A DNA stretch of 42,302 nucleotides from a virus. Each line of letters begins with the position of its first letter. Position 1 is the first letter of the stretch. Position numbers and translations under genes: made by a program. Of the stretch, positions 10,354-26,974 are shown in pieces. A model generated the notes under the pieces. The model was not told the DNA's origin. It was given only the letters and a program-made list of their open reading frames with translations, and searched no databases. The stretch spans positions 1-42,302 of IMG/VR virus record IMGVR_UViG_3300043446_001706; one strand, given 5' to 3'.

Positions 10354-10394
10354 ACTTCTCCTTTCCATGTACACTTTTTATTAGAAAATAAACA

Positions 10395-10476
10395 TAGGGC
10401 CGAAGGGGGTCGAACCCTTATGCCCGAAGGCTACGGATTTTAAGTCCGCTGCGTATACCAATTCCGCCACGGCCCC
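10395..10476 (-). tRNA. tRNA-Leu (anticodon UAA)
   Basis: Cloverleaf with a GGGGCCG/CGGCCCT acceptor, discriminator A, and a class II long variable arm with CCTTCGGG at its core. The T arm is GGGTTCGACCCC, and the anticodon loop CTTAAAA gives UAA. CCA is not encoded. It decodes UUA and possibly UUG. It sits between the metallophosphatase and ribonucleotide reductase genes in the same transcription direction. Confidence 0.93.
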
Positions 10477-10481
10477 ATAAC

Positions 10482-12857: not shown

Positions 12858-12868
12858 ACTTCACCTCC

Positions 12869-14149: not shown

Positions 14150-14152
14150 AAT

Positions 14153-14887
14153 CTACTCCCAAACCCGAACGAATCCGATTACATCACGAACATTACGATC
14201 ACGATACATTACAGCACCACCATTAGAATCATTAGTGATACTAGTGTTACCTTCAATCGTCTTAAACCAACCATCCTTCACAGGAGGATCAACAACTAGA
14301 CCAACATGATTAGCAACACCATCCTGCTTCCAAGAGAAGAGAACAATATCACCAGCCTGTACCTTATCCTTCGTGATAAGATTCAGACCATTATCTTGTT
14401 GGCGAGCATCAGCAAGCAGGAAAGGACAATACGCATAACGTACCCCCTTCTTAAAATGCTTAGCATTAGCCTGAACATAACAATACGTTACGAACATTGC
14501 ACACCAAGGACCAATGATCCCATACCAATTAGAGAACATAACCTTATTACTATTCGGAGGATTCTCCTTCACACCAATAAACTGACGAGCAACCTCTAGT
14601 GCAGTATCACGAAGCGGACGCTTATCCATACGCTTCTTAGCGCGTTGCCGCATCAACATAGTAGGCTTACGATACGTCAAGAATGCTTGCAAACCAGAAT
14701 CATAAGTACGATCCACATTCGCATCACGATACCCTAGACGATACTTAGCCGCACTCGTAGCACGAGCAGTCTGCTCATCATACACACCACTCTTACCAAC
14801 CGTAAGACCAAACGCCTTAAGATTCTTCTGTGCAGTCTTAACATCATCACCCTTCATAAAGGGAGTAGTCAAACGCAACTTCCTCAT
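14153..14887 (-). CDS. endolysin with peptidoglycan-binding and CHAP domains (244 aa)
   Basis: Residues about 8-70 form a peptidoglycan-binding-type repeat (GDDVKTAQKNL, GVYDEQTARA, then a second shorter copy). After a basic linker comes a CHAP amidase/endopeptidase domain with catalytic Cys in GPWCAMF (129), His in ANHVGLV (194) and the TIEGNTS motif. It has no signal peptide, so release should depend on a holin. The gene sits inside the DNA-metabolism arm, as gene 3.5 does in T7, and not next to the holin-like gene at 6877-7077. Wall cleavage by the CHAP domain is family knowledge. Confidence 0.9.
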   Translation of the reverse strand: MRKLRLTTPFMKGDDVKTAQKNLKAFGLTVGKSGVYDEQTARATSAAKYRLGYRDANVDRTYDSGLQAFLTYRKPTMLMRQRAKKRMDKRPLRDTALEVARQFIGVKENPPNSNKVMFSNWYGIIGPWCAMFVTYCYVQANAKHFKKGVRYAYCPFLLADARQQDNGLNLITKDKVQAGDIVLFSWKQDGVANHVGLVVDPPVKDGWFKTIEGNTSITNDSNGGAVMYRDRNVRDVIGFVRVWE

Positions 14888-15120
14888 ACATAACTCCTAA
14901 CTGTATTAATTGCTCGTTGTTCCTCAATATAAATCAACCGCTCAATATACCATTGAGCCTTACGAAGATCCTCAATACCATTCTTATAACGATACCGAGA
15001 CACATACTTTAGTACATTACCCTGATGATAATCAAGTCCCAAACCCTCAATAGCAGTAATAACTTCCATATCACCTTGAGTATAATGCTTCGGACTATTG
15101 ACAGGATCATCAAGCGACAT
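14884..15120 (-). CDS. DUF3310 protein (78 aa)
   Basis: Starts with VNSPKHYTQGDMEVI and continues with GNVLKYVSRYRYKNGIEDLRKAQWYIERL, the full signature of the phage DUF3310 family. These small proteins lie next to replication genes in many phages. A nucleotide-kinase-like role has been suggested by annotation but is not established. The start overlaps the HNH gene end, and the stop overlaps the endolysin start by four bases, so it is part of a tightly packed operon. Confidence 0.88.
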   Translation of the reverse strand: MSLDDPVNSPKHYTQGDMEVITAIEGLGLDYHQGNVLKYVSRYRYKNGIEDLRKAQWYIERLIYIEEQRAINTVRSYV

Positions 15121-15484
15121 TATTTAGTTCCTTATGGATCTGCCTATGACAAGGACGACACACCGGAACACACTTATCAATCTCATTCTGCAAGGACGTA
15201 GCAGACCTATGATAAATAGCAGTAGAAATATTAATCTCCTTCTCCTTAGGATCAAGATGGTGAAGATCAATAAGCGACGGGTGAAGCAACTTACCACAAC
15301 AATGACAAGGCTTATACTTTGCCGCCGCTACAATGCCACGATTAACTGTAGCCTGTACGTCCGTCTTAGCACGACGACAATCACGACACAAACTCTCCAC
15401 GCCATACCTACCCTTCTTATCCTTATAATACTGACTCGTATGCTTAACTTCCTTACAATGAGTACACTTCTTATAATTATCCAT
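15110..15484 (-). CDS. HNH endonuclease (124 aa)
   Basis: Three Cys-pair zinc sites (CTHCKEVK, CRDCRR, CHCCGK) lead into the HNH core: LIDLHHLDP, then a variable helix, CVPVCRPCHRQIH. The ATG at 15484 is preceded by AAGGAG and overlaps the end of the polymerase C-terminal gene. Such free-standing HNH enzymes are usually homing endonucleases that cut an unoccupied allele and spread themselves with flanking DNA. Its place directly downstream of a broken polymerase gene makes it the obvious candidate for causing, or once having caused, the split. Confidence 0.87.
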   Translation of the reverse strand: MDNYKKCTHCKEVKHTSQYYKDKKGRYGVESLCRDCRRAKTDVQATVNRGIVAAAKYKPCHCCGKLLHPSLIDLHHLDPKEKEINISTAIYHRSATSLQNEIDKCVPVCRPCHRQIHKELNNVA

Positions 15485-16217
15485 TATACGGCTCCTTATC
15501 TGCCCAGTTAGTATAACTAATTTCACAATCTGTTTCTATTCTAACGAACTCTTCTACAGTATTATTCCCCATAAGTGTTGGAATCTGATTAACTAGTGTA
15601 ACGATTTCGTTACGATCAGCATCTAAGATCAACTCGTCATGCACGATATTTACAATGTGTGTAGCATAATTTGCATATAGATACTTGTCTACTCGTACTA
15701 CAGCATCCCGCATTAGATCCGCTGCTGACCCCTGAATAAGAGCATTCAACGCCTTATGGGACTCTAATACGTGAAGCCTACGACCATACAAACTCTGGAT
15801 ATAACCACGCATATCCAAGGTTTCTGCGATACTTTGGTTTAATAGTTTGATTCCCGGCCTTGTATCATGATACGCAGCAAGCAATCGTTTAGCCTCCTTA
15901 TAGTTTACTCCTAATTGTCGCATGATTGTAGGAGTGCCACCACCATAGATGATACTAAAGTTTAGTGTCTTACCCACTTGCCGCTGCTCGTCTGTGATGC
16001 TGTCAGTAGCGTATAGTCCTTTGGCGGTAACAGCATGAGGATCTGATCCATTGTTAATCTCGTTCGCCAACGAATGGTCGTTGATTGCCGCTGCCAAGTA
16101 GTATGCGAGCAGCCTGACTTCGATGGCTTTGTAGTCGAAAAATAGGAATGCATCAAGTTTGGGTAGAAACGCTCGTTTGACATCCTTTTGACTCCTTGGA
16201 ATATTCTGTACGTTCAT
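15477..16217 (-). CDS. polA: family A DNA polymerase, C-terminal piece (palm and fingers, 246 aa)
   Basis: Begins with MNVQNIPRS, which in intact family A polymerases lies inside the polymerase domain just after the TGR-L/M-SS motif. It carries motif A (FFDYKAIEVRLLA, Asp 28), motif B or O-helix (RQVGKTLNFSIIYGG, Lys 83, Tyr 91) and motif C (IVHDELILD, residues 193-195), so all catalytic residues for nucleotide addition are here. AAGGAG eight bases before the ATG lies in the end of the glycosyltransferase gene, whose stop overlaps the start as ATGA. Activity would require assembly with the separately made N-terminal piece (16978-17919). Confidence 0.93.
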   Translation of the reverse strand: MNVQNIPRSQKDVKRAFLPKLDAFLFFDYKAIEVRLLAYYLAAAINDHSLANEINNGSDPHAVTAKGLYATDSITDEQRQVGKTLNFSIIYGGGTPTIMRQLGVNYKEAKRLLAAYHDTRPGIKLLNQSIAETLDMRGYIQSLYGRRLHVLESHKALNALIQGSAADLMRDAVVRVDKYLYANYATHIVNIVHDELILDADRNEIVTLVNQIPTLMGNNTVEEFVRIETDCEISYTNWADKEPYNG

Positions 16218-16981
16218 GCAAACCGCTCCTTAATCTGCTTTTCATACATACTAGAGATAATTGCTACTCGTTCTTGAATCTCAGCATTATGAACTCTCTG
16301 AGCCGTATTAGGACTAATATACTGCTTATAGAGCAACTTATCAATATGCTTTGCCTTTGTATTCAGTATAGTCCTAATCATAAACTCGTAATCATCAGCG
16401 ACTCGTAGACTAGGATCATGCCCATTCAGCATACGGTATACGCTTGATCGCCAAGCGCGAACATGATTCGGAGCACTAACAATATGACTCATTGTAATCT
16501 CATTAAGTTCTGGTGCTCGCATAACCATCACTTCATGCTCCTTATCATAATATTCTGACCCATACCCAAACGCCCAACCATCAGGATAACGACACGACTC
16601 CCCTTGCTCATTAATCTCACACCAATTAGAATACACGAATCCAACGTCAATGTCAAGGAACGCATCATGAATCTCATCAAGAGCATCAGAAGTAAGTTCA
16701 TCATCATGATCCAATTCAACAATAATAGTACCATTACTAATCATACTAGCCCACCGCTTTACCTCGCCAATACGACCAGATGGAACATGACTACGAAACA
16801 TACTAATCTTATACCGCTCATCAGAACAAAATCCGTATACTTGATTCCAAGCATTATTAGTATGCGAATCGTCCCAAACAATCCATTCCCAATTCGTATA
16901 TGTCTGTTGTTTGAGACTATTCCAAGTACGCGCCAACACAATGGGATCAGTCTCATAAATAGGAGTAATAACACTAATCAT
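16214..16981 (-). CDS. GT-A glycosyltransferase family 2 protein inserted in the polymerase gene (255 aa)
   Basis: Starts ISVITPIYETDPIVLARTW with the WEWIVWDD strand, the classic nucleotide-sugar-binding start of GT2 enzymes. A DxD-type metal motif is in ELDHDDEL (91-94) and an acidic catalytic motif in VADDYEF (about 195-200). It has no membrane segment and appears complete. GGGAG nine bases upstream lies in the end of the polymerase N-terminal piece. Both gene borders overlap their neighbours as ATGA. Possible targets are modified DNA bases, virion proteins or host surface glycans; none can be chosen from sequence. Its place inside a replication gene is the odd part. Confidence 0.88.
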   Translation of the reverse strand: MISVITPIYETDPIVLARTWNSLKQQTYTNWEWIVWDDSHTNNAWNQVYGFCSDERYKISMFRSHVPSGRIGEVKRWASMISNGTIIVELDHDDELTSDALDEIHDAFLDIDVGFVYSNWCEINEQGESCRYPDGWAFGYGSEYYDKEHEVMVMRAPELNEITMSHIVSAPNHVRAWRSSVYRMLNGHDPSLRVADDYEFMIRTILNTKAKHIDKLLYKQYISPNTAQRVHNAEIQERVAIISSMYEKQIKERFA

Positions 16982-17919
16982 GCTTCAGCACTCCCACTAC
17001 TCATACGACCCGTTCTAGTACCATGCTGACGAAAATTAGGATGCAACACACCATGCTTAGACTCATCATACATAGCATCAAAATACGTAGTCTTAATCTT
17101 ATTTGCTTCTCGCAAATCTACGATGAGCGTAGCCAACTCATCATCCACGCTGGCAAGTGTCGCCTTATCCGTCTTTGAGACTGACACTCCGCGCTCTTCC
17201 AAGGCTGCGAGGACTTGTTGCGGCGACTGAGGGTTGAAGTCTGGCCCGGATAACTCTGCAATTTTCGCTTTCGTCCAATAAATCTTATCACCATACTCCC
17301 TTCGTTTTTGTGTAATATACTCACGATCTACGTGCATACCTTGTGCCTCAATACGAAGCAAGGCTAGCGTCATCTCCTTTTCCATCTCATAAAGAGGATA
17401 TGACTCTTTAGGCAAACGATTAATTAGATACTCATACAAGCGAAGTGTAAACTCTGCATCCTTCTTAGCGTAAGGCGCTAGAATATCATAAGGAATAGGC
17501 TCATACCCATCTTCCTTCTTCAACTTAGCCTTACGCCGATATACCTTTAGTACCTCATCCTCATCCGTAGTCTCATTAAGATATACACGAGCAAGATGTT
17601 TTAGACTAGTAGACTGATGCTCATCAATAAGGTGTGCCATCGCTTGCGTATCCTCAAACTTGTCATAGAATACCCGACCATTGATACCAAGACGAATCAA
17701 TTTCTGCATGTCAAACTTGGCATTGTGCATGATGATCTTATCAGCGTTGGCTAGTGCCTTAAAGACTTCTGCAATAGCATCATCCCATTCACCAATACTC
17801 ATAATACGACGATCATAGACAATGCTATACGCATCAGTCGCCATGCTAATCATGAAGGCTTCATCATACCAGCCAACGCCGGTAGTTTCAGTATCAATCG
17901 CCACTAGATCCAAGACCAT
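16978..17919 (-). CDS. polA: family A DNA polymerase, N-terminal piece (3'-5' exonuclease and thumb, 313 aa)
   Basis: The proofreading domain is intact by motif: Exo I in AIDTETTG (Asp 9, Glu 11), Exo II in MHNAKFD (Asp 70), Exo III in PYAKKDAEFT (Tyr 150, Asp 154). A thumb region follows with PQSPQQVLAAL and LHPNFRQHGT. The protein stops right after TGRMSSGSAEA, in the middle of the polymerase domain and just before the NVQNIP motif, which is encoded 760 bases away after the glycosyltransferase. The start overlaps the dUTPase end and has AGAGGGG upstream. It could work as a separate exonuclease subunit or reassemble with the C-terminal piece. Confidence 0.93.
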   Translation of the reverse strand: MVLDLVAIDTETTGVGWYDEAFMISMATDAYSIVYDRRIMSIGEWDDAIAEVFKALANADKIIMHNAKFDMQKLIRLGINGRVFYDKFEDTQAMAHLIDEHQSTSLKHLARVYLNETTDEDEVLKVYRRKAKLKKEDGYEPIPYDILAPYAKKDAEFTLRLYEYLINRLPKESYPLYEMEKEMTLALLRIEAQGMHVDREYITQKRREYGDKIYWTKAKIAELSGPDFNPQSPQQVLAALEERGVSVSKTDKATLASVDDELATLIVDLREANKIKTTYFDAMYDESKHGVLHPNFRQHGTRTGRMSSGSAEA

Positions 17920-18319
17920 TATCCCCTCTAAGAGAATACCAAACCATATTATCTGCTCGCAACAAGTGAATATCCCACAATGGGATAATCATCAATTGTG
18001 CAATACGATCACCCTTCTTAACACGATACGGCTTATGATTAAGATTACCAAGAATAACTTTGATTTCACCATGATAACCAGAATCAATAATGCCCGGAGC
18101 ATTTAGAACGAATACACCATGATTAGCCGCTAGACCACTACGACTACAGATCATACCAACGAAGTCTTGTGGAATGTGCATACTAATTCCCGTAGAGACT
18201 ACATCATAATTATCAATGGTTTTATTCTCTACAGCATACAAGTCAAAGCAAGCATCATGCTTGTATGCTTTGGTTGGCTCTTGTGCCAACTCATGCTTAT
18301 GCTTGTAATATACTAGCAT
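17894..18319 (-). CDS. dut: dUTPase (141 aa)
   Basis: All five trimeric dUTPase motifs are present in order: DACFDLYA, CSRSGLAANHG, APGIIDSGYHGEI with VIL, GDRIAQLMI, and the C-terminal GDNGLGSSG. The enzyme hydrolyses dUTP to dUMP and pyrophosphate, keeping uracil out of phage DNA and feeding thymidylate synthesis. Length is normal for the family. The start overlaps the preceding stop (TAATG), and the end overlaps the polymerase start by 26 bases. Confidence 0.93.
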   Translation of the reverse strand: MLVYYKHKHELAQEPTKAYKHDACFDLYAVENKTIDNYDVVSTGISMHIPQDFVGMICSRSGLAANHGVFVLNAPGIIDSGYHGEIKVILGNLNHKPYRVKKGDRIAQLMIIPLWDIHLLRADNMVWYSLRGDNGLGSSGD

Positions 18320-18555
18320 TAGTCCATCCGATACGAACGATCATGCTGACAATCAGGACAATCACAAATACAATCAACCGTATCAAGTCCAACCTTCTGG
18401 TTAAACTTATCTAGAAAACTAGTATCATCCAACTCCATCTGCATCTCATCAAGACGCATCATTACATCATCAGCCATCTCCATAATAAGACGAATCTGAC
18501 GAGTAATCACCGCCAACTGCTGCTGATAAAACGTACTATCAACCTCAACATACAT
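18319..18555 (-). CDS. helical protein with C-terminal Cys cluster (78 aa)
   Basis: Residues 8-50 are a charged, Met-rich amphipathic helix region. The tail holds four cysteines within 10 residues (CICDCPDC) that could bind zinc or an iron-sulphur cluster. Start and stop overlap both neighbours as TAATG, which places it firmly in the operon between the Rad52-like protein and dUTPase. A partner or regulator of recombination or nucleotide metabolism is possible. No family recognised. Confidence 0.75.
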   Translation of the reverse strand: MYVEVDSTFYQQQLAVITRQIRLIMEMADDVMMRLDEMQMELDDTSFLDKFNQKVGLDTVDCICDCPDCQHDRSYRMD

Positions 18556-19190
18556 TATACAATCCCCTTCTTAGACATGGACTCACGAATACTATCAACA
18601 TCAAGATCCTTAATATCAAGAACCTCCATCATCTGATCCTTATCCGGCATCGAACCCGGATCCAACTCCAACACTCGCTGAGTATACGATACAACCAACT
18701 GCTTGAGTGCAATATCATCTGTCGCAGCACGACGCTGCAACTCAACATAATCACGCTCAGCAGCATCCCACAAATAGAGTGCAATACCATATTGGTGACA
18801 AGCCTTCTTAAGTGCCTCTGCCTGAGCACTCTTCACAGCAGTATCAGGATCAAAATTAACATTAGCACCAATACCATCACGACTAATCATAGCCTTCTGA
18901 GTAGTAAAGTATGCGTCATCATCATCCGGACCAGCACTAACAACACCAATATCCGAAAGAATAATAGTAAGAGTGCCCTGCACAACAGCCATAAACTGTG
19001 GCTTACCACTCTTCGTAGGAGAAGCATCACGAATTTCCCACGAATTAATCTGCCACGCCCAAGCATGACCAAGCACATCATTAAGACGATTAATATAACC
19101 ATCAATGGCTACATAATCCTGACCACTCTGATTCTTCTTTACTAGAGTAGGATGAAACTTCTCAGTAAGTTCTTTAGGAATCATACTCAT
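18555..19190 (-). CDS. Rad52-like single-strand annealing protein (211 aa)
   Basis: The first half follows the phage Rad52/Rad22 annealing-protein pattern: YVAIDGYINRLNDVLG with a following W-x-W, a long beta region, then DPDTAVKSAQAEALKKACHQYGIALYLW, the most recognisable segment of the family. The C-terminal part is an acidic helical tail. These proteins bind single strands and anneal homologous ends in recombination-dependent repair and replication. AGGAGG seven bases before the ATG at 19190 fixes the start. Together with the Cas4/RecB-like nuclease (19795-20637) and SSB it can form a complete recombination set. Confidence 0.83.
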   Translation of the reverse strand: MSMIPKELTEKFHPTLVKKNQSGQDYVAIDGYINRLNDVLGHAWAWQINSWEIRDASPTKSGKPQFMAVVQGTLTIILSDIGVVSAGPDDDDAYFTTQKAMISRDGIGANVNFDPDTAVKSAQAEALKKACHQYGIALYLWDAAERDYVELQRRAATDDIALKQLVVSYTQRVLELDPGSMPDKDQMMEVLDIKDLDVDSIRESMSKKGIV

Positions 19191-19201
19191 ATTCTGTCCT
19201 C

Positions 19202-19639
19202 CTAGACAGGCCAATAATAATTGTATTCCCCAACAACGTCAGGGTAGAACTGATTATACCATACCGGATCCTTAAATACAAGGGCTGACTTGTGTGAATC
19301 ATGCACACGATTATCGCCAAGCCAATGTGGATAACATACATACTGTGGCCATTCTGGCAAATAACCAAAGTGTTCCTTATACACATCAAGGGTCTTTTCC
19401 CAACAAGTATCCTTATACCCACGAGCCTTCCACTCACGAACAGTATGCATCTGATACATCACAAGAGCATCCTCATAACCACGCCACATACGAGTAGCAG
19501 GATGATTAACCCAACCCTTACTAAGACCAGCAAGAGCCTTCATAATCTGCAAAGTCTCTACACGCTGCTTACCTAGACGTTGACGATCAAGGACACGAAC
19601 ACTATTTGCAAATGAAATTTCTGGTACGAACGTTTGCAT
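19202..19639 (-). CDS. MSMEG_6728-like conserved protein, possible DNA-lesion enzyme (145 aa)
   Basis: MQTFVPEISFANSVRVLD, RLGKQRVETLQI, NHPATRMWRGYEDAL and the late PHWLGD with DSHKSALVFKDP match a compact family found in actinobacteria and their phages. It is sometimes annotated as pyrimidine-dimer DNA glycosylase. The conserved Arg, Lys, His and Trp residues support an enzymatic role, but the lesion activity is annotation lore and not shown here. It is encoded just before the annealing protein, in keeping with repair. Confidence 0.7.
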   Translation of the reverse strand: MQTFVPEISFANSVRVLDRQRLGKQRVETLQIMKALAGLSKGWVNHPATRMWRGYEDALVMYQMHTVREWKARGYKDTCWEKTLDVYKEHFGYLPEWPQYVCYPHWLGDNRVHDSHKSALVFKDPVWYNQFYPDVVGEYNYYWPV

Positions 19640-19838
19640 GACGCTTCTCCGCTTCTTTAAGTCCGGCTTTAACCCTCTCTAGTCCCTTATCAGTAAAAAA
19701 CCACTCACCACGATACAACTCAATATAACCCAACTGAGACAAGAATACAATCTCATCATCATTAACCTCAATATGAAACCGCCGAGGATTATACCTACTC
19801 CACAATTTCTTCAACGTACGCAAGCAGCGTTTCCTCAT
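19602..19838 (-). CDS. small basic protein, possible winged helix (78 aa)
   Basis: After a very basic N-terminus comes VNDDEIVFLSQLGYIELYRGEWFFTDKGLERV, which reads like the recognition helix and wing of a small winged-helix DNA-binding protein. The start is uncertain: ATG at 19838 has GAGGG just upstream, while a TTG at 19847 or a later TTG are alternatives. It overlaps the genes on both sides. A small transcription regulator or DNA-binding accessory protein is the best guess. Confidence 0.55.
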   Translation of the reverse strand: MRKRCLRTLKKLWSRYNPRRFHIEVNDDEIVFLSQLGYIELYRGEWFFTDKGLERVKAGLKEAEKRHANVRTRNFICK

Positions 19839-20637
19839 CACCCTCAATCACCGTCCTCTCATAATCAACTTTACCAATCATAATACGCTTCTGTTGGCTA
19901 CAACCACAAGGATCATCATCACCCATATATCGCCACGGACAGAACATACTAGAATAATGCGGTTGATAGAACAACTCATAATGCTTATTGCGCTTATTTT
20001 GTTTCCACTTATACTCGCCCTCAGGCCACGGAGGAAGCAATCTGGTACTAGCATAAATACTAATATCAGACTCCACACCAGCAATACGATCAAGAATCTC
20101 CTGCTTAGGCAGCGGAGTAACATCATAAATCATAGGCTCATGCCAACGACGCTTATAGTCCTGACTCACAGGAAGATACATAATCTGCACATTATCAGGT
20201 TGCCAATAATTCAGATGATAATAACAAGAGACTTGCATGATATGCTCAGGACGAGGCTCCTGCAAAAACGTAAGACCAGCACCACTAATAGTCTTATAGT
20301 CTACGAGTGTCCACTTATTATCATATCTGATAAATGCGTCTGCTGTACCACCCCAAGGATAATGAAAGTCCTGATCCTCAGGAACAATTGCAACCTCAGC
20401 ATAATAATCATCAATGCGACTATCCTCCATAAAAATAGCATGGATACGATCATGAATAGCGGTACCTTGTAGAAGAGGGAGTGTATTCGCCCACGGCTCA
20501 CTCTTAATCTTAGGATAACCAAACCACCAATACAAAACCGTATGACGATTATGATTAAGATGCGACGAGAAATGCAGCATCTTATCATTACGAGGCTCTA
20601 GCGTATGGTCTTTAATAATATCAATTAAGCCGCTCAT
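19795..20637 (-). CDS. Cas4/RecB-like PD-(D/E)xK exonuclease (280 aa)
   Basis: Motifs in order are GTAIHDRIH, WGGTADAFIRY, TLVDYKTISG (catalytic Asp and Lys) and QVSCYYHLNYW, the RecB/Cas4 nuclease set. A C-terminal cysteine group (FCPWRY, PCGC) could hold an iron-sulphur cluster as in Cas4. It would resect double-strand ends for the Rad52-like annealing protein encoded 600 bases downstream, as in phage exonuclease and annealase pairs. There is no CRISPR array in the window. The ATG overlaps the previous gene end and has GGAGG very close upstream. Confidence 0.83.
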   Translation of the reverse strand: MSGLIDIIKDHTLEPRNDKMLHFSSHLNHNRHTVLYWWFGYPKIKSEPWANTLPLLQGTAIHDRIHAIFMEDSRIDDYYAEVAIVPEDQDFHYPWGGTADAFIRYDNKWTLVDYKTISGAGLTFLQEPRPEHIMQVSCYYHLNYWQPDNVQIMYLPVSQDYKRRWHEPMIYDVTPLPKQEILDRIAGVESDISIYASTRLLPPWPEGEYKWKQNKRNKHYELFYQPHYSSMFCPWRYMGDDDPCGCSQQKRIMIGKVDYERTVIEGDEETLLAYVEEIVE

Positions 20638-20812
20638 AATCCTCCATAAAATCCTCCCACTCCTTCATCAAACGACCATTGCCATCCTCAATCTGAATCA
20701 TAGTCTCACCATCATAACGAACACTAGCATAAATAGTAAGAAGTTTCTGACCATTATAAAAAAGAGCGGACTCATTATCATGATGATCGCCTTTACTAAC
20801 AAACTTAAACAC
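20621..20812 (-). CDS. small protein of unknown function (63 aa, GTG start)
   Basis: The GTG at 20812 has GAGGT five bases upstream and overlaps the preceding stop; the longer open frame upstream has no such signal. The product has a basic N-terminus, a beta-like core (LFYNGQKLLTIYASVRY, TMIQIEDGNG) and an acidic helical C-terminus. It is part of the tightly overlapping run of small genes. Function unknown. Confidence 0.65.
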   Translation of the reverse strand: MFKFVSKGDHHDNESALFYNGQKLLTIYASVRYDGETMIQIEDGNGRLMKEWEDFMEDYERLN

Positions 20813-20999
20813 TATTAACCTCATTAATAATAATATTTGTTCGATCACTGCAATCAATAACCATGGCCTCGTACCAAGCACCATGATCTTCTTGAATAAT
20901 CATACCAATCGCCTCATGCTCATTAGCGGCCTCAAATGATTCAGTAGTCTCAAACGTAATATAATGCGTTTCCTTCCATCTAGCAGTATATTTAGGCAC
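20805..20999 (-). CDS. small protein, MPKY-type paralogue (64 aa, GTG start)
   Basis: GTG start inside the previous gene's end (GTGCCTAA), with AAGGAG upstream. The N-terminus MPKYTARWKE, with EAANEHEAIGMI later, resembles the gene at 22800-22973 (MPKYLLTWTE, EADTEDQAWERL). The two look like diverged copies of one small alpha/beta protein. Function unknown. The repeated use of this fold in the first-expressed region suggests host-directed proteins. Confidence 0.7.
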   Translation of the reverse strand: MPKYTARWKETHYITFETTESFEAANEHEAIGMIIQEDHGAWYEAMVIDCSDRTNIIINEVNSV

Positions 21000-21126
21000 G
21001 TTCCTTCTCCTTCATTTTGCGCGCCTGACGAAGAGCCTTCGCCTCCATCTTCTTTTTACCACGCTCCAAACGCTTATTCATATTCTCTTCCAACTTACGC
21101 TTCTTCGTACTACCCGCAACAGCCAT
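20992..21126 (-). CDS. Lys/Arg-rich microprotein (44 aa)
   Basis: Nearly half of the residues are Lys or Arg, in one long predicted helix (KKRKLEENMNKRLERGKKK, then RQARKMKEKERA). The ATG overlaps the previous stop (TAATG) and has AAGGAG upstream. The gene is too short for usual gene callers but is fully embedded in the operon by overlaps at both ends. It could bind nucleic acid. Confidence 0.7.
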   Translation of the reverse strand: MAVAGSTKKRKLEENMNKRLERGKKKMEAKALRQARKMKEKERA

Positions 21127-21365
21127 TACCCATTCTCCTTATTATAATCAAAAACAAGACAATCAGCAGTAAACTTAGGCTTACCACTCGCAGTCACACC
21201 ACGACGATAAGCATACACCTTATACCCATTACAATACAATAGATCAGTAGCCTTAATCAAACTACTAGCCCTACCAATCTTACTACCATTAACCTTAACA
21301 GTCCAACCATCATTCCTAAAAGAAACAACAGCCTCAACTAGTTTCCTATCCTTCTTCTTACTCAT
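21126..21365 (-). CDS. small basic beta-rich protein (79 aa)
   Basis: Starts MSKKKDRK and continues with beta-strand-like segments (EAVVSFRNDGWTVKVNG, GYKVYAYRRGV, FTADCLVFDY). The start overlaps the previous stop as ATGA. No motif or family recognised. It belongs to the run of small genes read leftward from the promoter near 21558-21586. Confidence 0.7.
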   Translation of the reverse strand: MSKKKDRKLVEAVVSFRNDGWTVKVNGSKIGRASSLIKATDLLYCNGYKVYAYRRGVTASGKPKFTADCLVFDYNKENG

Positions 21366-21523
21366 ACTCCACTATCCCAATACTCACTAGGAGGATAATC
21401 CATATCATCCCTATCAATACTATTCATATACTTATTCGTAAGATATTCTATACGATCCTCATACATTCTATATTCCCTATCATACTCAATATAATCCTCA
21501 TATGAAGTATAGTATGGATTCAT
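21362..21523 (-). CDS. Tyr- and acid-rich microprotein (53 aa)
   Basis: The ATG at 21523 has AAAGGAAAGG directly upstream; an upstream ATG at 21562 would lie at or before the likely transcription start. In 53 residues there are ten tyrosines and many Asp/Glu (YTSYEDYIEYDREYRMYEDR). This is the composition of small DNA-mimic or other acidic anti-host proteins, but no family can be named. It is the first gene after the tRNA pair. Confidence 0.7.
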   Translation of the reverse strand: MNPYYTSYEDYIEYDREYRMYEDRIEYLTNKYMNSIDRDDMDYPPSEYWDSGV

Positions 21524-21550
21524 TTTTCCTTTCCTTTGTAGGTTATAACG

Positions 21551-21586
21551 ATATGGTAGCATAGATCCTTCCGAAATGCTAGTAAA
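21551..21586 (-). promoter_or_regulatory. putative sigma-70-type promoter
   Basis: On the minus strand TTTACT (21586-21581) and TATGCT (21563-21558) are separated by 17 bases, close to the -35/-10 consensus. It follows the two tRNA genes and precedes the Tyr/acid-rich gene, so it could restart transcription into the replication operon after tRNA processing. Found by eye only. Confidence 0.45.
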
Positions 21587-21610
21587 TATTCTGTTAATTG
21601 TTTGTTAGGA

Positions 21611-21681
21611 CTGAGGGACTAGGATTCGAACCTAGATAATGGGCACCAAAAACCCATGTCCTACCGTTAGACGATCCCTCA
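21611..21681 (-). tRNA. tRNA-Gln (anticodon UUG)
   Basis: Acceptor TGAGGGA/TCCCTCA with discriminator G, D arm TCGTCTAACGGTAGGA typical of tRNA-Gln, anticodon loop TTTTGGT (UUG), and T arm AGGTTCGAATCCT. CCA is not encoded. It lies one base from the adjoining tRNA-Leu gene, so both come from one precursor. Confidence 0.93.
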
Positions 21682-21682
21682 A

Positions 21683-21764
21683 TAGGGGTAGAGGGAGTCG
21701 AACCCCCATGCCTTGCGGCGCTAGATTTTGAGTCTAGTGTGTCTACCAATTCCACCATACCCCC
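21683..21764 (-). tRNA. tRNA-Leu (anticodon CAA)
   Basis: Acceptor GGGGGTA/TACCCCT with discriminator A, long variable arm (CGCCGCAAGGC), T arm GGGGTTCGACTCC, and anticodon loop CTCAAAA giving CAA. It reads UUG, the leucine codon that the late structural genes use very heavily. CCA is not encoded. Confidence 0.93.
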
Positions 21765-21769
21765 ATTTG

Positions 21770-22321
21770 TTAGTTGGCGCTCCCCCGGAAGGCGCACCAA
21801 ATTGCAGCCTGAGTATCGCGCGGCGTCATACCAAGCACATCAGCCACAGTACGCACACCCTGCTCAACCTCAGCACGAATCTTACTAGTCACATCACTAC
21901 CATAACCAGCAGCCTTACTCATAATACTATCAACAGTAATAGGATCAGTATGACCAAGAATATTAAGGTAAAAGTTAGTCACCTTAGGCCCGGTTACATG
22001 ACGGCTGTAGTAGCGGTCGTTAGCAACGAGCATTCCCTTACGAGCATTAGCCGGAAGGATACCATAATACGACTGCCGCTTATACTCTGGCACTCGCAGA
22101 TCATCCAGCAGCATAGCAACAGCAGCAGTGTTCTTAGACCAACGAGCACGAGGACTAGTCACAGCAAGCATAGCAGCAACCCGTTCTGGTGTCACAGCAT
22201 GATACTTAGAAGCAAACTTGCAGAACTTCCAAGCATTAGGATACCAAGCCTGACCCTGCTCCGTAGCAAGGTCAATACCGTATGCATCAAGCGTCTTGTA
22301 AAACTTATTAGCAGTAGTCAC
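21770..22321 (-). CDS. conserved phage protein, DUF7178-like, possible helix-hairpin-helix fold (183 aa)
   Basis: MLAVTSPRARWSKN, GPKVTNFYLNILG and DPITVDSIMSKAAG are segments I associate with a family common in actinobacteriophages that is usually listed as hypothetical. The helical layout with GPKV and a Thr-Val-Asp motif recalls helix-hairpin-helix DNA glycosylases, but catalysis is not shown. The GTG at 22321 overlaps the previous stop (GTGA) and has GAGGT six bases upstream. The gene ends just before the tRNA-Leu gene. Confidence 0.65.
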   Translation of the reverse strand: MTTANKFYKTLDAYGIDLATEQGQAWYPNAWKFCKFASKYHAVTPERVAAMLAVTSPRARWSKNTAAVAMLLDDLRVPEYKRQSYYGILPANARKGMLVANDRYYSRHVTGPKVTNFYLNILGHTDPITVDSIMSKAAGYGSDVTSKIRAEVEQGVRTVADVLGMTPRDTQAAIWCAFRGSAN

Positions 22322-22803
22322 AAGCAAACCTCGTAAACATTATCAATAGTCACATTATAAATATCATAATCAAGGCTGAACGCCTCTACACCATGATTAT
22401 CAATATACTCAGTGGCGGCTTCCTCCGCCTGATCCTCATTCATGGCCTCAACCGTGACGGTCACACTAACAGGAATAGTCACGGTCACTTCATACTCACG
22501 CCGAAAGTTCTCAATATCAAGATCAAAACCAAGTTCATTCAGCCTATCAATAATATCCTGCGGCTCAATACCAGTATCATCCATAGCATACTGCACAGCA
22601 CTAATCATCTCGTGCATAGCACTACGCTCAACACACATAGTCCAAAAATGCTGAATGATAGGAAGCAGGATGCTAGTATCCCTAGCCTCTAGATTCCACA
22701 TACTCAGCAACTTGGAATACTTATCCTTCCAAACGTCTACATGCTCTTCATTCATATCAGTCACAGTATTCTCCATAATAATAGGCATAGTCATAAAGAT
22801 CAC
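22318..22803 (-). CDS. acidic protein sharing a C-terminal beta module with 22973-23395 (161 aa)
   Basis: The N-terminal two thirds are acidic and helical. The C-terminal third starts with RREYEVTVTIPVSVTVTVEA and continues with an acidic helix and DYDIYNVTIDNVYEV. The same module ends the protein at 22973-23395, so the two genes look like paralogues. GTG at 22803 overlaps the previous stop; ATG codons at 22794 or 22788 are alternative starts. Function unknown. Confidence 0.7.
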   Translation of the reverse strand: MIFMTMPIIMENTVTDMNEEHVDVWKDKYSKLLSMWNLEARDTSILLPIIQHFWTMCVERSAMHEMISAVQYAMDDTGIEPQDIIDRLNELGFDLDIENFRREYEVTVTIPVSVTVTVEAMNEDQAEEAATEYIDNHGVEAFSLDYDIYNVTIDNVYEVCL

Positions 22804-22973
22804 TTAACAATCTCCGCAGTATGACCAAAAGAGTTCATAACATCCCAATCCTCTAGTTCATAATCCGCACCATTCTCTAGCCGTTCCCAAGCCTGATCCT
22901 CAGTATCAGCCTCAACATAACTATAATAACTATTCAGAACCTGCTCAGTCCATGTAAGCAAATACTTAGGCAT
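22800..22973 (-). CDS. acidic microprotein, MPKY-type paralogue (57 aa)
   Basis: The ATG overlaps the preceding stop (TAATG), and its stop overlaps the next GTG start (GTGA). MPKYLLTWTEQVLNSYYSYVEA resembles the start of the protein encoded at 20805-20999. The rest is acidic (DTEDQAWERLENGADYELEDWD). The gene is short but tightly placed between the two paralogous beta-module genes. Function unknown. Confidence 0.7.
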   Translation of the reverse strand: MPKYLLTWTEQVLNSYYSYVEADTEDQAWERLENGADYELEDWDVMNSFGHTAEIVK

Positions 22974-23395
22974 TAGACCTCCCGAACCTCCTCAACATCA
23001 CCAGTATAATGCACATTATACTCCATATCATACGCCTCTAGACCATTACACTCTACACTATCCATAGCATTCTCACTAGCCTGACTAACAGAATGCGCCT
23101 CAATCGTAAGAGTAACACTCACCGGAACAGTAATCGTAACCTCATACTCTCGCCGCAAATAACACTCATCAATCACATTATGAAAATCAAGAATATCAAC
23201 AATCTCATTACGCTCAGCAGTCATATCACCAATAATCTCACTAATGATAGACGACTCAATACACTCACGCTCAATAATCTCACTAAGAATATGCGCTACA
23301 ATACTAAGTTCACGATCACGATGCTCAAGAGTATGCTTAGTAATATCAAGATCATGCTTAAGCGAATCCACATACTCACTAGTCATATCAGTCAT
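22973..23395 (-). CDS. helical protein with C-terminal beta module, paralogue of 22318-22803 (140 aa)
   Basis: ATG at 23395 has AAGGAG upstream; the longer open frame overlaps the previous gene. A long acidic helical region (DLDITKHTLEHRDRELS, ILSEIIERE) is followed by RREYEVTITVPVSVTLTIEA, nearly the same module as in the neighbouring paralogue, then YDMEYNVHYTGDVEEV. The intervening gene 22800-22973 separates the two copies. The function is unknown, but the alternating hydrophobic module should form a beta hairpin or sheet. Confidence 0.72.
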   Translation of the reverse strand: MTDMTSEYVDSLKHDLDITKHTLEHRDRELSIVAHILSEIIERECIESSIISEIIGDMTAERNEIVDILDFHNVIDECYLRREYEVTITVPVSVTLTIEAHSVSQASENAMDSVECNGLEAYDMEYNVHYTGDVEEVREV

Positions 23396-23663
23396 AGGTA
23401 TAATCTCCTTCATCATCATTAGGATAATCGTCAGGATAATCATAATCCATCGTCCAATCATGCGACGATGCGTAATCCTCAGGCTCCAACTCAGTATGCC
23501 AACCCGGATACTGGTACTCTGGCGGATCACTTAGCACGAACGTATCATCCAATAGACTAGCATCATCCCGTAGGTCATCTACAACCTTAGGGAACCAAGA
23601 ATGTGGGCCAACCATACCATTATCCTTCCACTCCATATACTTAGCAATATCAGACACTCGCAT
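23388..23663 (-). CDS. acidic, Tyr/Asp-rich protein (91 aa)
   Basis: The start at 23663 has GGAGG six bases upstream and overlaps the end of the ArdC-like gene. The N-terminus (MRVSDIAKYMEWKDNG) looks folded, while the last 30 residues are mainly Asp, Glu, Tyr and Pro (DYDYPDDYPNDDEGDYTYD). Such tails are typical of DNA-mimic or nucleic-acid-competing proteins. Its coupling to an antirestriction gene suggests a defence-evasion role, which is an inference. Confidence 0.7.
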   Translation of the reverse strand: MRVSDIAKYMEWKDNGMVGPHSWFPKVVDDLRDDASLLDDTFVLSDPPEYQYPGWHTELEPEDYASSHDWTMDYDYPDDYPNDDEGDYTYD

Positions 23664-24540
23664 AAACATCCTCCATCATGTAGTCTACAGCCTTCTCAGC
23701 CATGTTAGCAGCACTCACGAGTAGACTAGGCTCATCCTTACAACGCTGCGCCCAACCCTTCAGGTATGCAGCGGACTGCTCCATATCAGCAGGAATATCC
23801 AACGCACCACACATCATAGCAGCACCAAACTCTGCAACAAGTTCCTCCTTTGCATAAGAATCAGTACCAAAACCAGCCTTCTCCAGACGATTCAGCCGGG
23901 TATCAGCACCGGTAGCATGAACAATCTCATGAGCCAACGTCTGAGCATACCAAGACGAACGATGAAACATATCACGATCAGGCATACGAATCTGATCCTC
24001 ACTAGGAATATAACAAGCCTTGTTAGAACCATGTTCCAGAGACAGGTTAGCATCGCACCAATCATACATGACGCTGATACCAGCATAATCCTCATCACCA
24101 TCAGGCTGAACCGGAGCCTCAACCTCTACATCATACTCAGGCAGACCATCAATCTGCGAAGCATGAAAAACCTTATAGAATCGCATATTCCACCAAGTAT
24201 AAGTCTCAACCTCACCTTTATCATTCTCCTTCTCACTCACAGCAGGAGCATTATAGACAACGATAGTAGACTTACTACCCTTACGAACCTTAGCACCAAG
24301 ATCCTTCACATTACCAAACGTAAACCAACGAGGATCATTACTACCAAAACTCTCTTGCATCCAGCCGAGGTAGATACGGTTAAAACCGTTGTAAAGACGA
24401 CTACTAAAACCATTCTGCGGCTGGTAAGCCTTGCTTACAACCCACGGCTGCTGCCAAATAGCAACACCCTGCTCCATCTGCTCAATCAGACCAGCAGTCA
24501 CTTGCTGGTAGAGTTCCTTTTTCTTATCAGCATCCATCAT
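23650..24540 (-). CDS. ArdC-like antirestriction protein (296 aa)
   Basis: Two domains are visible. The N-terminal ArdC/DUF1738-type domain (QQVTAGLIEQMEQGVAIWQQPW, NGFNRIYLGW, VRKGSKSTIVVY) is known in the family to bind single-stranded DNA. The C-terminal part is a zinc-metallopeptidase-like domain with HExxH in LAHEIVHATG (about 204-208) and EELVAEFGAAM as the third ligand region. ArdC proteins protect incoming DNA against restriction. GGAAAGG lies just upstream of ATG 24540. The transcript leader contains the hairpin at 24581-24614. Confidence 0.85.
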   Translation of the reverse strand: MMDADKKKELYQQVTAGLIEQMEQGVAIWQQPWVVSKAYQPQNGFSSRLYNGFNRIYLGWMQESFGSNDPRWFTFGNVKDLGAKVRKGSKSTIVVYNAPAVSEKENDKGEVETYTWWNMRFYKVFHASQIDGLPEYDVEVEAPVQPDGDEDYAGISVMYDWCDANLSLEHGSNKACYIPSEDQIRMPDRDMFHRSSWYAQTLAHEIVHATGADTRLNRLEKAGFGTDSYAKEELVAEFGAAMMCGALDIPADMEQSAAYLKGWAQRCKDEPSLLVSAANMAEKAVDYMMEDVYASV

Positions 24541-24580
24541 ATTTTCCTTTCCGGTTTCCGGCAATCTCTATTCTCTCTAA

Positions 24581-24614
24581 GATAACTAATCTCACTAAAG
24601 TTCGATTAGTTATC
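24581..24614 (-). promoter_or_regulatory. leader hairpin with GAAC...AGTGA loop upstream of the ArdC-like gene
   Basis: A perfect 10-bp stem (24581-24590 with 24605-24614) closes a 14-base loop, which on the minus strand reads CGAACTTTAGTGAG. It sits about 40 bases before the ArdC start codon and overlaps the last codons of the upstream gene. The hairpin at 26209-26241 has a different stem but nearly the same loop, also in a leader. It has no T run, so it is more likely a binding site or RNA processing signal than a terminator. Confidence 0.55.
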
Positions 24615-24791
24615 GTGAGAGATATAGGCTACAGTCTCAGCATACCGAATGGCAGCCTCACCATCCTCAATAGCCCAATCCTTGCGCTCGTAAGTACCAT
24701 AAAACTCCCAAGTATAACCAGCATCATCGCTGACATACAAATCGTAGCAATCCTCAGCGATTTCATCAATATTGTATACAAAATCATTCAT
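24606..24791 (-). CDS. small acidic protein (61 aa)
   Basis: The ATG at 24791 follows the stop of the preceding microgene and has GGGAG farther upstream; the longer open frame has no good start signal. The product (EIAEDCYDLYVSDDAGYTWEFYG, then an acidic amphipathic helix) is small, acidic and aromatic. It is the last gene before the ArdC leader hairpin. Function unknown. Confidence 0.6.
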   Translation of the reverse strand: MNDFVYNIDEIAEDCYDLYVSDDAGYTWEFYGTYERKDWAIEDGEAAIRYAETVAYISHDN

Positions 24792-24795
24792 GATT

Positions 24796-24927
24796 TTACT
24801 CACTCTCCCACTCGTTATCCTGCTCATCATCATAATCCAGATACTCATCAGGATTATACTCAGGCTCAAAGTAAAGATAATCGTACCAAGTTTCCTGCGC
24901 TTCGATGTAAAAATCCTCATTCATCAT
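24796..24927 (-). CDS. highly acidic microprotein (43 aa)
   Basis: AAAGG lies four bases before ATG ATG; the second ATG at 24924 is equally possible. Roughly two fifths of residues are Asp or Glu and many others are Tyr, Trp or Phe (WYDYLYFEPEYNPDEYLDYDDE). This composition fits a DNA mimic of the Ocr kind by character only; there is no sequence relationship I can show. It heads the short operon leading to the ArdC-like gene. Confidence 0.6.
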   Translation of the reverse strand: MMNEDFYIEAQETWYDYLYFEPEYNPDEYLDYDDEQDNEWESE

Positions 24928-25052
24928 ATAGCCTTTCTAAGCGTTTCAGATACCCTACCTGTGGGGTAGTATTCCTACCCCCCTACAAGTGCCTTAGAAC
25001 GCGCTCTAGGCCCCTTAAAATGGACGCTAGAGGTAGGCGTCCCCCTACACGC
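24928..25052 (-). other. structured untranslated stretch between 25053 and 24927
   Basis: No gene is visible. On the minus strand it contains a terminator-like hairpin (6-bp stem 25022-25027 with 25037-25042, followed by ATTTT), a weaker imperfect stem around 24991-25011, and a perfect 7-bp hairpin (24963-24969 with 24975-24981, loop of five) about 36 bases before the next start. The first could end the upstream transcript, the last could control the acidic microprotein and ArdC genes. Confidence 0.5.
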
Positions 25053-25232
25053 TTACTCTCCCTTTTTAAGGTTGTTTCGAATATCCCGAAGAGCCTGATA
25101 GATTTCATCCTCGGAGATATCATCATCAAACTCAGGAACCTTATCCATGGGAACAATCACAAGGTCGTCCACCTGACATTCACCCCATGAACCGTCGGGT
25201 GCTGCCCACACAACGTACTCATCAGCATTCAT
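25053..25232 (-). CDS. small acidic protein (59 aa)
   Basis: The ATG at 25232 overlaps the previous stop (ATGA) and has AAAGGAG upstream. The product has an N-terminal beta-like part (DEYVVWAAPDGSWGE) and a Val/Asp-rich centre, then an acidic helix (FDDDISEDEIYQALRDI). It is followed by a terminator-like hairpin at 25022-25042. Function unknown. Confidence 0.68.
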   Translation of the reverse strand: MNADEYVVWAAPDGSWGECQVDDLVIVPMDKVPEFDDDISEDEIYQALRDIRNNLKKGE

Positions 25233-25426
25233 GCTACTTCTCCTTTAGTTTCACAATCCTCAAGCACATTTTCCATCTTATTGATGGAATCCTGCACACG
25301 AGCAAGAAACACATCATCATGCTCAACACCACGAAGATGCTCATCAATGCAAGCATCCAGCAGAGGAATCAACACGCGCATTTCCTCAATAGACAGAGGA
25401 ACATTCTGCTTATCCCACGGCTTCAT
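25229..25426 (-). CDS. small helical protein (65 aa)
   Basis: It starts MKPWDKQNVPLSIEEMRVLIPLLDACIDEH and continues as an acidic helix (ARVQDSINKMENVLEDCE). The start overlaps the end of the previous gene, and its stop overlaps the next start, so three genes are read in a coupled chain from 25602. No family recognised. Confidence 0.7.
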   Translation of the reverse strand: MKPWDKQNVPLSIEEMRVLIPLLDACIDEHLRGVEHDDVFLARVQDSINKMENVLEDCETKGEVA

Positions 25427-25602
25427 GCTGCCACCTCGTAGACGTACGCCACCTCATTCCAATCGTAACCCATCCCCTCCACATAATCGCGGAGGTCAGC
25501 CACAGCCTCACCCGTGATGATATACGCAAGATCAGTATCCACACTCATGAAGTCCAGCCACTTCATCGCGCTATCATCGAACTCAACATGGAACATAATC
25601 AT
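25423..25602 (-). CDS. small acidic protein (59 aa)
   Basis: ATG at 25602 has GGAGG five bases upstream; the longer open frame covers the promoter-like region and should not be coding. The product is aromatic and acidic (MIMFHVEFDDSAMKWLDF, then DLRDYVEGMGYDWNEVAYVYEV). It is the first gene after the promoter candidate at 25632-25661. Function unknown. Confidence 0.7.
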   Translation of the reverse strand: MIMFHVEFDDSAMKWLDFMSVDTDLAYIITGEAVADLRDYVEGMGYDWNEVAYVYEVAA

Positions 25603-25631
25603 ATCAGCCTCCCGGCTAGTTGCTTGCAGAC

Positions 25632-25661
25632 AGCCTACAGCACACACCCTTAGACTGTCAA
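25632..25661 (-). promoter_or_regulatory. putative promoter with perfect TTGACA box
   Basis: Minus strand TTGACA (25661-25656), then 18 bases, then TAGGCT (25637-25632). The -35 box is perfect, the -10 box weak. It lies in the 109-base gap before the gene starting at 25602, a natural place for an early promoter. Confidence 0.45.
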
Positions 25662-25711
25662 GTAAGGAAAATGTAAAGGTTGATTTATGGCTCAACCAAA
25701 CCGTTTCTTGC

Positions 25712-26191
25712 CTAGCCCCGCTCGTCGTCGCGGAGGCGGCTGTTCGTGGGCAGACCCACCGGCTCGCAACCCTCGCGCTTGCCGCGCTTCGCATAACCCT
25801 TGCTCTTGCCCATGTACCTAGCCGCCACACGCTCGCTATGCGCGCTGCTCAGGCGCTTGACCTTCCAACGCTTACCATCAATCACCACCGAAACAGAGTT
25901 TCGACCACGCTTACCCATACGACCGATCACCTCAACCTCAGGATTTTCAGCATAGGCAACATCATCGGAGTCCAGCGCAGTCCTACAGGACTTGCACACT
26001 CCGTCCTGCACACGACGAGCCTTCTTGTGAAATCCACAAACCTTGCACTTGATCTTCTCAGACGGCATGGCCTTCGGCTCCTGCGCCGTCTGCTCCTGCA
26101 CATCCGACACGATGCCGAGGTCATCACGGAGAGCCTGACGCTGCTCCGGCGAGAGGCTATCAATCCTCACAATCATCTCGTCAACAGTCAT
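25712..26191 (-). CDS. zinc-finger, basic-tailed protein (159 aa), first gene of the leftward arm
   Basis: Residues 1-35 form an acidic helix (MTVDEMIVRIDSLSPEQRQALRDD). Around 48-70 there is a CxxC...CxxC finger (CKVCGFHKK, GVCKSC), and the last 70 residues are very basic (GRMGKRGRN, GKRWKVKR, GKSKGYAKRGKREG). This looks like a nucleic-acid-binding protein, possibly an early regulator. AGGAAGGAAAG precedes the ATG. The hairpin at 26209-26241 stands just upstream in its leader. GC content looks higher than in neighbouring small genes. Confidence 0.75.
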   Translation of the reverse strand: MTVDEMIVRIDSLSPEQRQALRDDLGIVSDVQEQTAQEPKAMPSEKIKCKVCGFHKKARRVQDGVCKSCRTALDSDDVAYAENPEVEVIGRMGKRGRNSVSVVIDGKRWKVKRLSSAHSERVAARYMGKSKGYAKRGKREGCEPVGLPTNSRLRDDERG

Positions 26192-26208
26192 CTTCTTTCC
26201 TTCCTAGA

Positions 26209-26241
26209 GGTTCTTATCTTCACTACGTTCAGATAAGAACC
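26209..26241 (-). promoter_or_regulatory. leader hairpin with GAAC...AGTGA loop upstream of the first leftward gene
   Basis: A perfect 11-bp stem (26209-26219 with 26231-26241) closes an 11-base loop that reads GAACGTAGTGA on the minus strand. It ends 17 bases before the ATG of the zinc-finger gene, right above its ribosome binding site. The loop matches that of the ArdC leader hairpin (GAACTTTAGTGA), while the stems differ. Confidence 0.55.
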
Positions 26242-26278
26242 GTCTGGAAGGGAATAGAGGGAATCGGCGACAACTCCC

Positions 26279-26667
26279 TAATCTCTACTCTATAGAGAGT
26301 AGAGATTAAACTATCCTTAATAGTCTTATATAATCTAATGCCAAAGGCACTTAGATTATTAATAAGACATAAGGATAAACCTAACTAATCAAAGATTAGT
26401 TAAACTTATATCCATAAATGGATATACCTGTACAATCTAGAGATTCTTTAATAATCTCTAGATTATGGCTCTAATAAACAGATATCTAGTAGTAATGTAT
26501 TACTACTATATCTGTATTCTTTAGCCAGATAAAAGATACTTATGGAATAAGTATGTGTAATACTACTAATCCTTAGTAGTATTAGTTCTTATAGTATATA
26601 TATATATACTATATAGGGGGCTGACATAATCAATGGATACTATAGGTATTATATATATAATACCTAT
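26279..26667. repeat. array of ten successive, non-identical hairpins
   Basis: Ten inverted repeats follow each other: 26279-26308 (11-bp stem), 26312-26377 (stacked stems of 8, 7 and 8 bp plus a GC tip), 26382-26402 (9 bp), 26407-26426 (8 bp), 26434-26464 (12 bp), 26478-26515 (7 plus 9 bp with a two-base bulge), 26536-26554 (8 bp), 26558-26584 (12 bp), 26590-26613 (12 bp, no loop) and 26642-26667 (12 bp). Stem sequences differ from unit to unit, loops are mostly 2-8 bases, and no reading frame runs through. The region is very AT-rich. It lies between the leftward and rightward arms and could be a replication origin, a packaging signal, a structured RNA or a transcription barrier. Confidence 0.85.
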
Positions 26668-26974
26668 GCGAAGTAAAATCTCCGATGTAAAATATTACTA
26701 GGGTCTACGCATACCCCACTTGTAAAATACTACAAATCGGCTCGTACATATACGCATATGCATACCCATACCCCCGTTATGACCCCCCCACATATATATA
26801 ATTACACTACATATATTTTTTGTACGATATGATTTTTGGCTTATTCTCGTTATAGTATGTTAAGTGTTTGTTAAGATTATGATTTTTATTTCCGATTTGT
26901 GTTGTTTTGTTCGTTAGTATATATGAGGGACTATTTTTTTGTTATTGTTTGTTGATTGCGCCGGGGAGGTGTTT
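26668..26974. promoter_or_regulatory. non-coding region upstream of the late arm with short direct repeats
   Basis: No gene is visible. TGTAAAATATTAC (26686-26698) and TGTAAAATACTAC (26721-26733) are near-identical direct repeats; a third GTAAAAT occurs at about 26673. They are followed by C-rich plus-strand tracts with CATACCC units (about 26709-26790) and a T/G-rich stretch. Rightward transcription of the late genes must start in or near here. TATAGT- and TATATA-like boxes exist (26851, about 26918), but no good -35 partner was seen. Confidence 0.5.

Follow-up and report, generated by a model that had tools for sequence, protein, structure and literature searches.

The window analysed in this study is the whole 42.3-kb stretch (42,302 nucleotides) of the virus record IMGVR_UViG_3300043446_001706, which lacks end repeats and derives from an uncultured tailed phage. 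Its minus-strand (early) arm (8437–26191) carries replication and host-takeover genes, including those for a DNA polymerase A in two parts, a primase/helicase-like ATPase, a Rad52-like protein, a class II ribonucleotide reductase, an ArdC-like anti-restriction protein and a small sigma-like protein, while the plus-strand (late) arm (26975 to the window end, then 21–8399) carries the tail collar, TerL, portal, capsid, tail and fibre genes. The first gene of the early arm (gene 1; 25712–26191, minus strand) encodes a 159-aa zinc-ribbon protein (CxxC...CxxC). In a search of isolated-phage proteins, the portal was most similar (approximately 27% identity) to those of Arthrobacter, Microbacterium and Cellulosimicrobium phages, and one window gene was assigned to the MSMEG_6728 family; these sequence similarities suggest that the host is likely an actinobacterium. 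All TerL matches among isolated phages were below 60% identity, a homologue of gene 1 (from contig L047) was unmatched in the same kind of search, and neither TerL nor gene 1 was found in GTDB contigs representing host genomes. The product of gene 1 had no convincing match to a known family, and its structure model, of low confidence (pLDDT 65) and too poor for conclusions on the fold, had no fold match.

The region between the two arms is occupied by a tightly packed row of unlike hairpins, none of which is assigned to a strand. All ten hairpins listed in a preliminary description of this DNA were recovered, with perfect stems of 8–13 bp, loops of 0–12 nt and a distinct sequence for every stem, and an eleventh, hairpin a (HPa; 26196–26254), belongs to the row just outside the range given there. 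HPa consists of an 11-bp core (26209–26241) and an outer stem, with an apical loop AC-TAC-GT that reads AC-TTC-GT in most relatives. Hairpin 2 (26279–26308) has a 13-bp stem and the loop ATAG, which is kept, with its orientation, in nearly all relatives, the stem being altered on both sides. When bulges are allowed, two of the ten stems become longer than originally described: the perfect stem at 26330–26359 extends to form hairpin 3 (26312–26377), a long stem with conserved bulges and a top TGCC-AAA-GGCA that is retained in relatives or covaried to TGAC-AAA-GTCA, and the 10-bp perfect stem at 26487–26508 is enclosed by a TGGCT...AGCCA closing stem to form hairpin 7 (26466–26527). The remainder of the row comprises hairpin 4 (26382–26402; 9 bp, C(AAA)G triloop), hairpin 5 (26407–26426; 9 bp, 2-nt loop), hairpin 6 (26434–26464; 12 bp), hairpin 8 (26536–26554; 8 bp, T(GGA)A triloop), hairpin 9 (26558–26584; 12 bp, A(TCC)T triloop), hairpin 10 (26590–26613; a 12-bp AT palindrome without spacer) and hairpin 11 (26642–26667; a spacerless 13-bp palindrome that follows the conserved linker GGCTGA).

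Two conserved blocks lie between the array and the late arm. The putative minus promoter block (26780–26830, minus strand; TCGTAC-17-TAATTA...TATATATG) is proximal to the array, and transcription from it would make the array the 5′ leader of gene 1. The putative plus (late) promoter block (26850–26940, plus strand) combines GTTAAG repeats with a TATATAT-GAGGG start region; a plus promoter near 26915 would start beyond the array and so produce a transcript that excludes it. A promoter consensus scan listed neither block, its scores being indistinct from those of shuffled sequence. The conserved direct repeat GTTAAG (26850–26880, spacing of about 11–12 bases), which almost every relative carries upstream of the plus promoter block, is a possible activator site. 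Three GTAAAAT motifs (26673–26740) between the array and the minus promoter block also recur in relatives, with some copies within TGTAAAAT..TACA-like dyads; they are candidate operators or iterons, yet, despite the three copies beside the array, the motif is not enriched genome-wide, and it was rejected as an iteron.

The density of stems in this region far exceeds chance. Eleven perfect stems of at least 8 bp (8–13 bp) were counted at 26209–26667, compared with 0.45 on average and never more than 3 in 1000 dinucleotide-preserving shuffles, and other 400-base windows of the genome, array edges aside, never contained more than two. Fold z-scores of the array were −13.3 for plus-strand RNA, −15.7 for minus-strand RNA and −16.0 for DNA. 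The shuffled controls proposed in the preliminary description thus failed to reproduce the stems, and its exclusion of several familiar repeat classes was upheld: the only self-matches were those of hairpins to their own reverse complement, all stems being different, as expected of neither a CRISPR nor tandem repeats, and no terminator-like site (G+C-rich stem followed by a T run) was found within 26196–26667. A scan of the window against Rfam 15 at the gathering score returned tRNAs only, searches of the open literature for such phage arrays yielded nothing matching, the 2.3-kb region had zero DNA matches in 50,697 phage records, and all three Arthrobacter/Microbacterium/Cellulosimicrobium-type phage records examined were without an array.

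A TerL search retrieved 80 related loci, approximately 30 of which reach the divergent region and carry an array at the same place, with up to 10 or 11 perfect stems, or fewer where the contig is cut. Related arrays were found in contigs with TerL identity as low as 74%, and searching with gene 1 brought in more diverged arrays of 10–15 hairpins, some with entirely different stems. The order of the hairpins, some linkers (GGCTGA, GTACA, TGGCT) and three loops, those of the hairpins proximal to gene 1 (ATAG; TGCC-AAA-GGCA; AC-TTC-GT), are retained in most arrays. The proposal that structure rather than sequence is conserved, to be checked by compensatory changes in relatives, was borne out: in an alignment of 20 arrays, two-sided changes were seen in 38 of the 49 pairs, and 150 cells were changed on both sides versus 15 on one side, although the structure was derived from the same sequences and cells represent sequences, not events. 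None of 500 shuffles reached the observed covariation measures, and slid controls dropped to about 40% paired. Independent changes must nevertheless be many, given that many stems in distant arrays are unalignable. RNAalifold on the whole alignment recovered the well-aligned hairpins only, because the stems are too diverged for MAFFT, and counting was therefore performed hairpin by hairpin. Many contigs of relatives start inside or just beside the array at scattered points (L009, L020, L036, L037, L042, L044, L045, L049, L103, L110, L116, L122 and L135), which is probably due to assembly or sequencing breakage at this hypervariable hairpin region.

The array is linked to gene 1. In the virus collection, it precedes every homologue of gene 1 for which the contig includes upstream DNA, these homologues being zinc-ribbon proteins of about 93–173 aa. 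Conversely, one relative (G003; TerL identity 85%, replication proteins mostly 58–74%) has neither gene 1 nor the array while retaining the conserved promoter block and replication and packaging genes matching those of the window, and in a second lineage (G007/G008; most shared genes 64–93% identical to those of the window) the zinc ribbon is lost, leaving a C-terminal remnant, and the array is eroded to a few hairpins, with the replication genes kept. Array and gene 1 therefore appear to be kept or lost together, although only two lineages without gene 1 were seen, too few to make coincidence improbable. In four contigs (L145, L154, L159 and L056), extra perfect triloop hairpins (e.g. ACCTCATC-ttc-GATGAGGT) occur within the coding sequence of gene 1, towards its 5′ end.

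These two lineages also bear on the suggestion that the array is a replication origin, a packaging site or a telomere-like end of the phage genome, which would be in keeping with its AT-richness, its location at the gene strand switch and the cumulative GC skew minimum, its likeness in form to Streptomyces telomeres (PMC7205883, PMC4513846) and the many relative contigs that end in or near it. The GC skew is confounded by gene orientation and was rejected as proof of an origin, and the contig ends are scattered over the array rather than placed at one point. Near-complete relatives break at three other places, with a gene order circularly permuted with respect to the window, and the array is thus internal in the phage genome. 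Since both G003 and G007/G008 keep their replication genes (and G003 also its packaging genes), the array is dispensable for replication and packaging in this group, and we consider a role as origin, packaging site or genome end improbable. The same two lineages weaken the preliminary suggestion of an essential insulator, together with those of an origin and a packaging site, whereas cruciform extrusion and a structured leader, proposed alongside them, are now the leading possibilities.

Among 102 distinct triloops, 50 are R-N-A and 46 T-N-Y, with 6 others, such that 96 of 102 fit a rule for which composition, under the constraint that loop ends must not pair, predicts a share of approximately 48%. 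The closing pair is C:G in 78 of the 102 and G:C in 4. Only 11 of 42 chance triloops elsewhere in the window fit the rule, compared with 41 of 41 in eight diverged arrays (p 7e-14). T-N-Y is the reverse complement of R-N-A and the two occur in near-equal numbers; the rule is therefore strand-symmetric and concerns double-stranded DNA rather than one transcript. GNA or its complement accounts for about one third of the triloops and ANA for the rest. The extra stability of GNA loops is well documented, and the predominance of ANA over GNA counts against reading the array as DNA hairpins. Comparable loop chemistry is already known for DNA, in the GNA-type sheared-purine loops of Streptomyces telomere palindromes (PMC7205883) and in the N4 early promoters, whose hairpins extrude at physiological superhelicity only when the closing pair is C:G and the triloop has G on its 5′ and A on its 3′ side (PMC4496689).

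Comparison between relatives often revealed identical arms enclosing inverted loops, namely ATA/TAT (in several arm families, including hairpin 8, whose loop occurs in both orientations with identical arms), GAA/TTC, AAA/TTT and AC/GT. Such reversals are most simply inversions, since the alternative of two or three separate substitutions that all fall in the loop is unlikely, and loop inversions with identical arms are a signature of template switching, as are multiple simultaneous stem changes (PMC8794818). Both signatures are abundant here and are consistent with the array being mainly a mutational product, in which template switching at quasi-palindromes perfects stems and flips loops, sheared-purine loops simply mark the best-forming hairpins, and function is weak or absent. 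Against this, the place, order, linkers and three gene-proximal loops are fixed across very diverged stems, and the array is lost together with gene 1; mutational bias alone predicts neither this loss nor the fixed layout. A largely mutational origin without appreciable function is hence a rather unlikely account, but template switching may still explain how the perfection of the stems is maintained.

The stems themselves contain very little wobble pairing, with 2456 distinct Watson–Crick pair contexts versus 22 single mismatches; 8 of these would be wobble pairs in minus-strand RNA, 1 in plus-strand RNA and the other 13 in neither. A rough count in the tRNA acceptor stems of the same phages gave approximately 12% G-U. 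Counts of G-U over the whole region on both strands were uninformative, because the linkers pair too. Taken together, scarce wobble, loop inversions and the symmetric loop rule point to DNA hairpins rather than RNA alone, and we consider it more likely than not, on fairly good evidence, that the hairpins act as such at the DNA level.

The main rival to a DNA-level role is a structured 5′ leader RNA of the minus operon, in which 10–15 hairpins would form co-transcriptionally, the last hiding the ribosome-binding site of gene 1, and would shield the untranslated leader against Rho, nucleases or backtracking or titrate an RNA-binding protein such as the gene 1 product. The array does lie between the putative minus promoter block and gene 1, and the 3′ arm of HPa, as minus-strand RNA, contains the Shine-Dalgarno sequence of gene 1, which was paired in HPa in all four sequences folded. 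The conserved bulges of hairpin 3, the conserved linkers GGCTGA, GTACA and TGGCT, and the 8:1 excess of minus-strand over plus-strand wobble also fit an RNA contribution. On the other hand, G-U is almost absent although stems switch freely between A-U and G-C, T-N-Y is as common as R-N-A although RNA gives no reason for the strictness of T-N-Y, and the leader has no Rfam family match. As an explanation of the array, the leader RNA is thus unlikely, though a serious contender. The three gene 1-proximal hairpins, however, hold one loop orientation (ATAG, AAA/GAA and TTC/TAC), and AAA loops outnumber TTT loops (19 versus 5), both suggestive of a strand-specific role; an RNA role is plausible for at least the gene 1-proximal part of the array.

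Several known systems share parts of this architecture. CsrB/RsmZ-type sponge RNAs form a long row of different hairpins sharing a CsrA-binding GGA loop motif, and resemble the array in being a row of unlike hairpins, but the array loops vary and invert. Streptomyces telomeres and N4 promoter hairpins are close enough in form to revise the preliminary statement that no named element has this form, but the array belongs to neither. Streptomyces telomeres contain a row of 5–8 different palindromes with compensatory changes and rapid turnover (PMC7205883, PMC4513846) and 3-nt sheared-purine loops of the types GCA, GGA and GNA (PMC7205883). The array likewise consists of tightly packed, different palindromes with compensatory changes and of sheared-purine-type triloops closed by C:G (96 of 102 and 78 of 102, respectively), probably also in an actinobacterial setting, given the likely host. 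Unlike these telomeres, which lie at the end of a linear replicon and work with a terminal protein, the array is internal, flanked by both gene arms, AT-rich and dominated by ANA loops; in scans of the phage proteins that took in part of the small ORFs, no Tpg/Tap homologue was seen. The N4 early promoters are likewise short hairpins with loops of 3 nt, found beside a tailed phage's early genes, with C:G closing and a 5′ purine/3′ A loop (PMC4496689), a sequence rule that the array largely follows, the 5′ position being A or G. They differ in being three separate hairpins of conserved sequence, each recognised by the virion RNA polymerase and conserved from −17 to +1, whereas the array comprises 10–15 unlike hairpins with stems that all differ within and between arrays. 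An N4-type virion RNA polymerase was not recognised: the 1885-aa late protein (831–6488, plus strand) had no sequence match in PHROG, Pfam or PDB and gave no motif B in a pattern search. The template-switch hairpins of Monttinen and Loytynoja (2022) share perfect stems, instantaneous compensatory changes and loop inversions with the array, but reflect a way in which rRNA and microRNA genes mutate rather than an element, and inversions are rare there and frequent here (PMC8794818). As the array fails one defining feature each of telomeres (end location) and of N4 promoters (conserved promoter sequence), and no described family was found for it in Rfam or in the open-literature searches, it seems to be a structural DNA element of a new kind, assembled from known building blocks. 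The more specific proposal of a new class, in which an array of orientation-free, supercoil-extruded DNA hairpins is defined by a loop code (C-RNA-G or the reverse complement) and not by sequence, works with a dedicated zinc-ribbon protein where a phage early operon begins and is perfected by template switching, is tentative and rather less likely than not.

Our preferred explanation, held with a little less than even confidence, is that the 10–15 DNA hairpins form an accessory, supercoil-extruded platform controlling the early operon together with gene 1. The selected feature would be DNA structure, in the form of short perfect Watson–Crick inverted repeats with loops suited to extrusion under negative supercoiling, as at the N4 promoters, and the array would be an accessory module co-inherited with the gene for the small zinc-ribbon protein. 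Supercoiling of the incoming genome by host gyrase would extrude the hairpins at the head of the early operon, where they would offer a platform to a protein that binds by structure, the gene 1 product being the simplest candidate. In the mRNA, HPa would hide the ribosome-binding site of gene 1 and, with the platform, set the timing or level of early expression, while template switching would keep stems perfect and flip loops. The array, its conservation and covariation, the loop rule, the loop inversions and the linkage to gene 1 are direct observations, from which we infer extrusion in vivo, the transcript borders, binding by the gene 1 protein and the regulatory effect.

If this explanation is correct, the shape of DNA hairpins is under selection in a regulatory region that is in live use, and the divergent arrays of approximately 30 phages constitute a natural experiment showing which hairpins can arise in supercoiled cellular DNA, a question otherwise approached through a few model sequences such as N4. 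Functional DNA cruciforms, of which few are known, would gain one more family, and early control in phages would be connected with the physical rules that telomere palindromes follow, probably within the same bacterial phylum. Its loop inversions would, in addition, be an unusually clear natural record of template switching.

Several features elsewhere in the genome were also observed. The DNA polymerase A gene is split (15110–17919, minus strand) into ORFs 16978–17919 and 15477–16217, with a glycosyltransferase gene between the halves and an HNH endonuclease gene after them; in G003 and G007 the halves are close together and a glycosyltransferase match was not found. At 11239–11821 (minus strand), a sigma-70 region 2-like ORF (11486–11821) overlaps a small ORF (11239–11535) that may hold region 4, the two possibly forming a two-piece phage sigma factor. 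The tail fibre gene (40093–41478, plus strand) contains long collagen-like GxQ/GPQ repeats.
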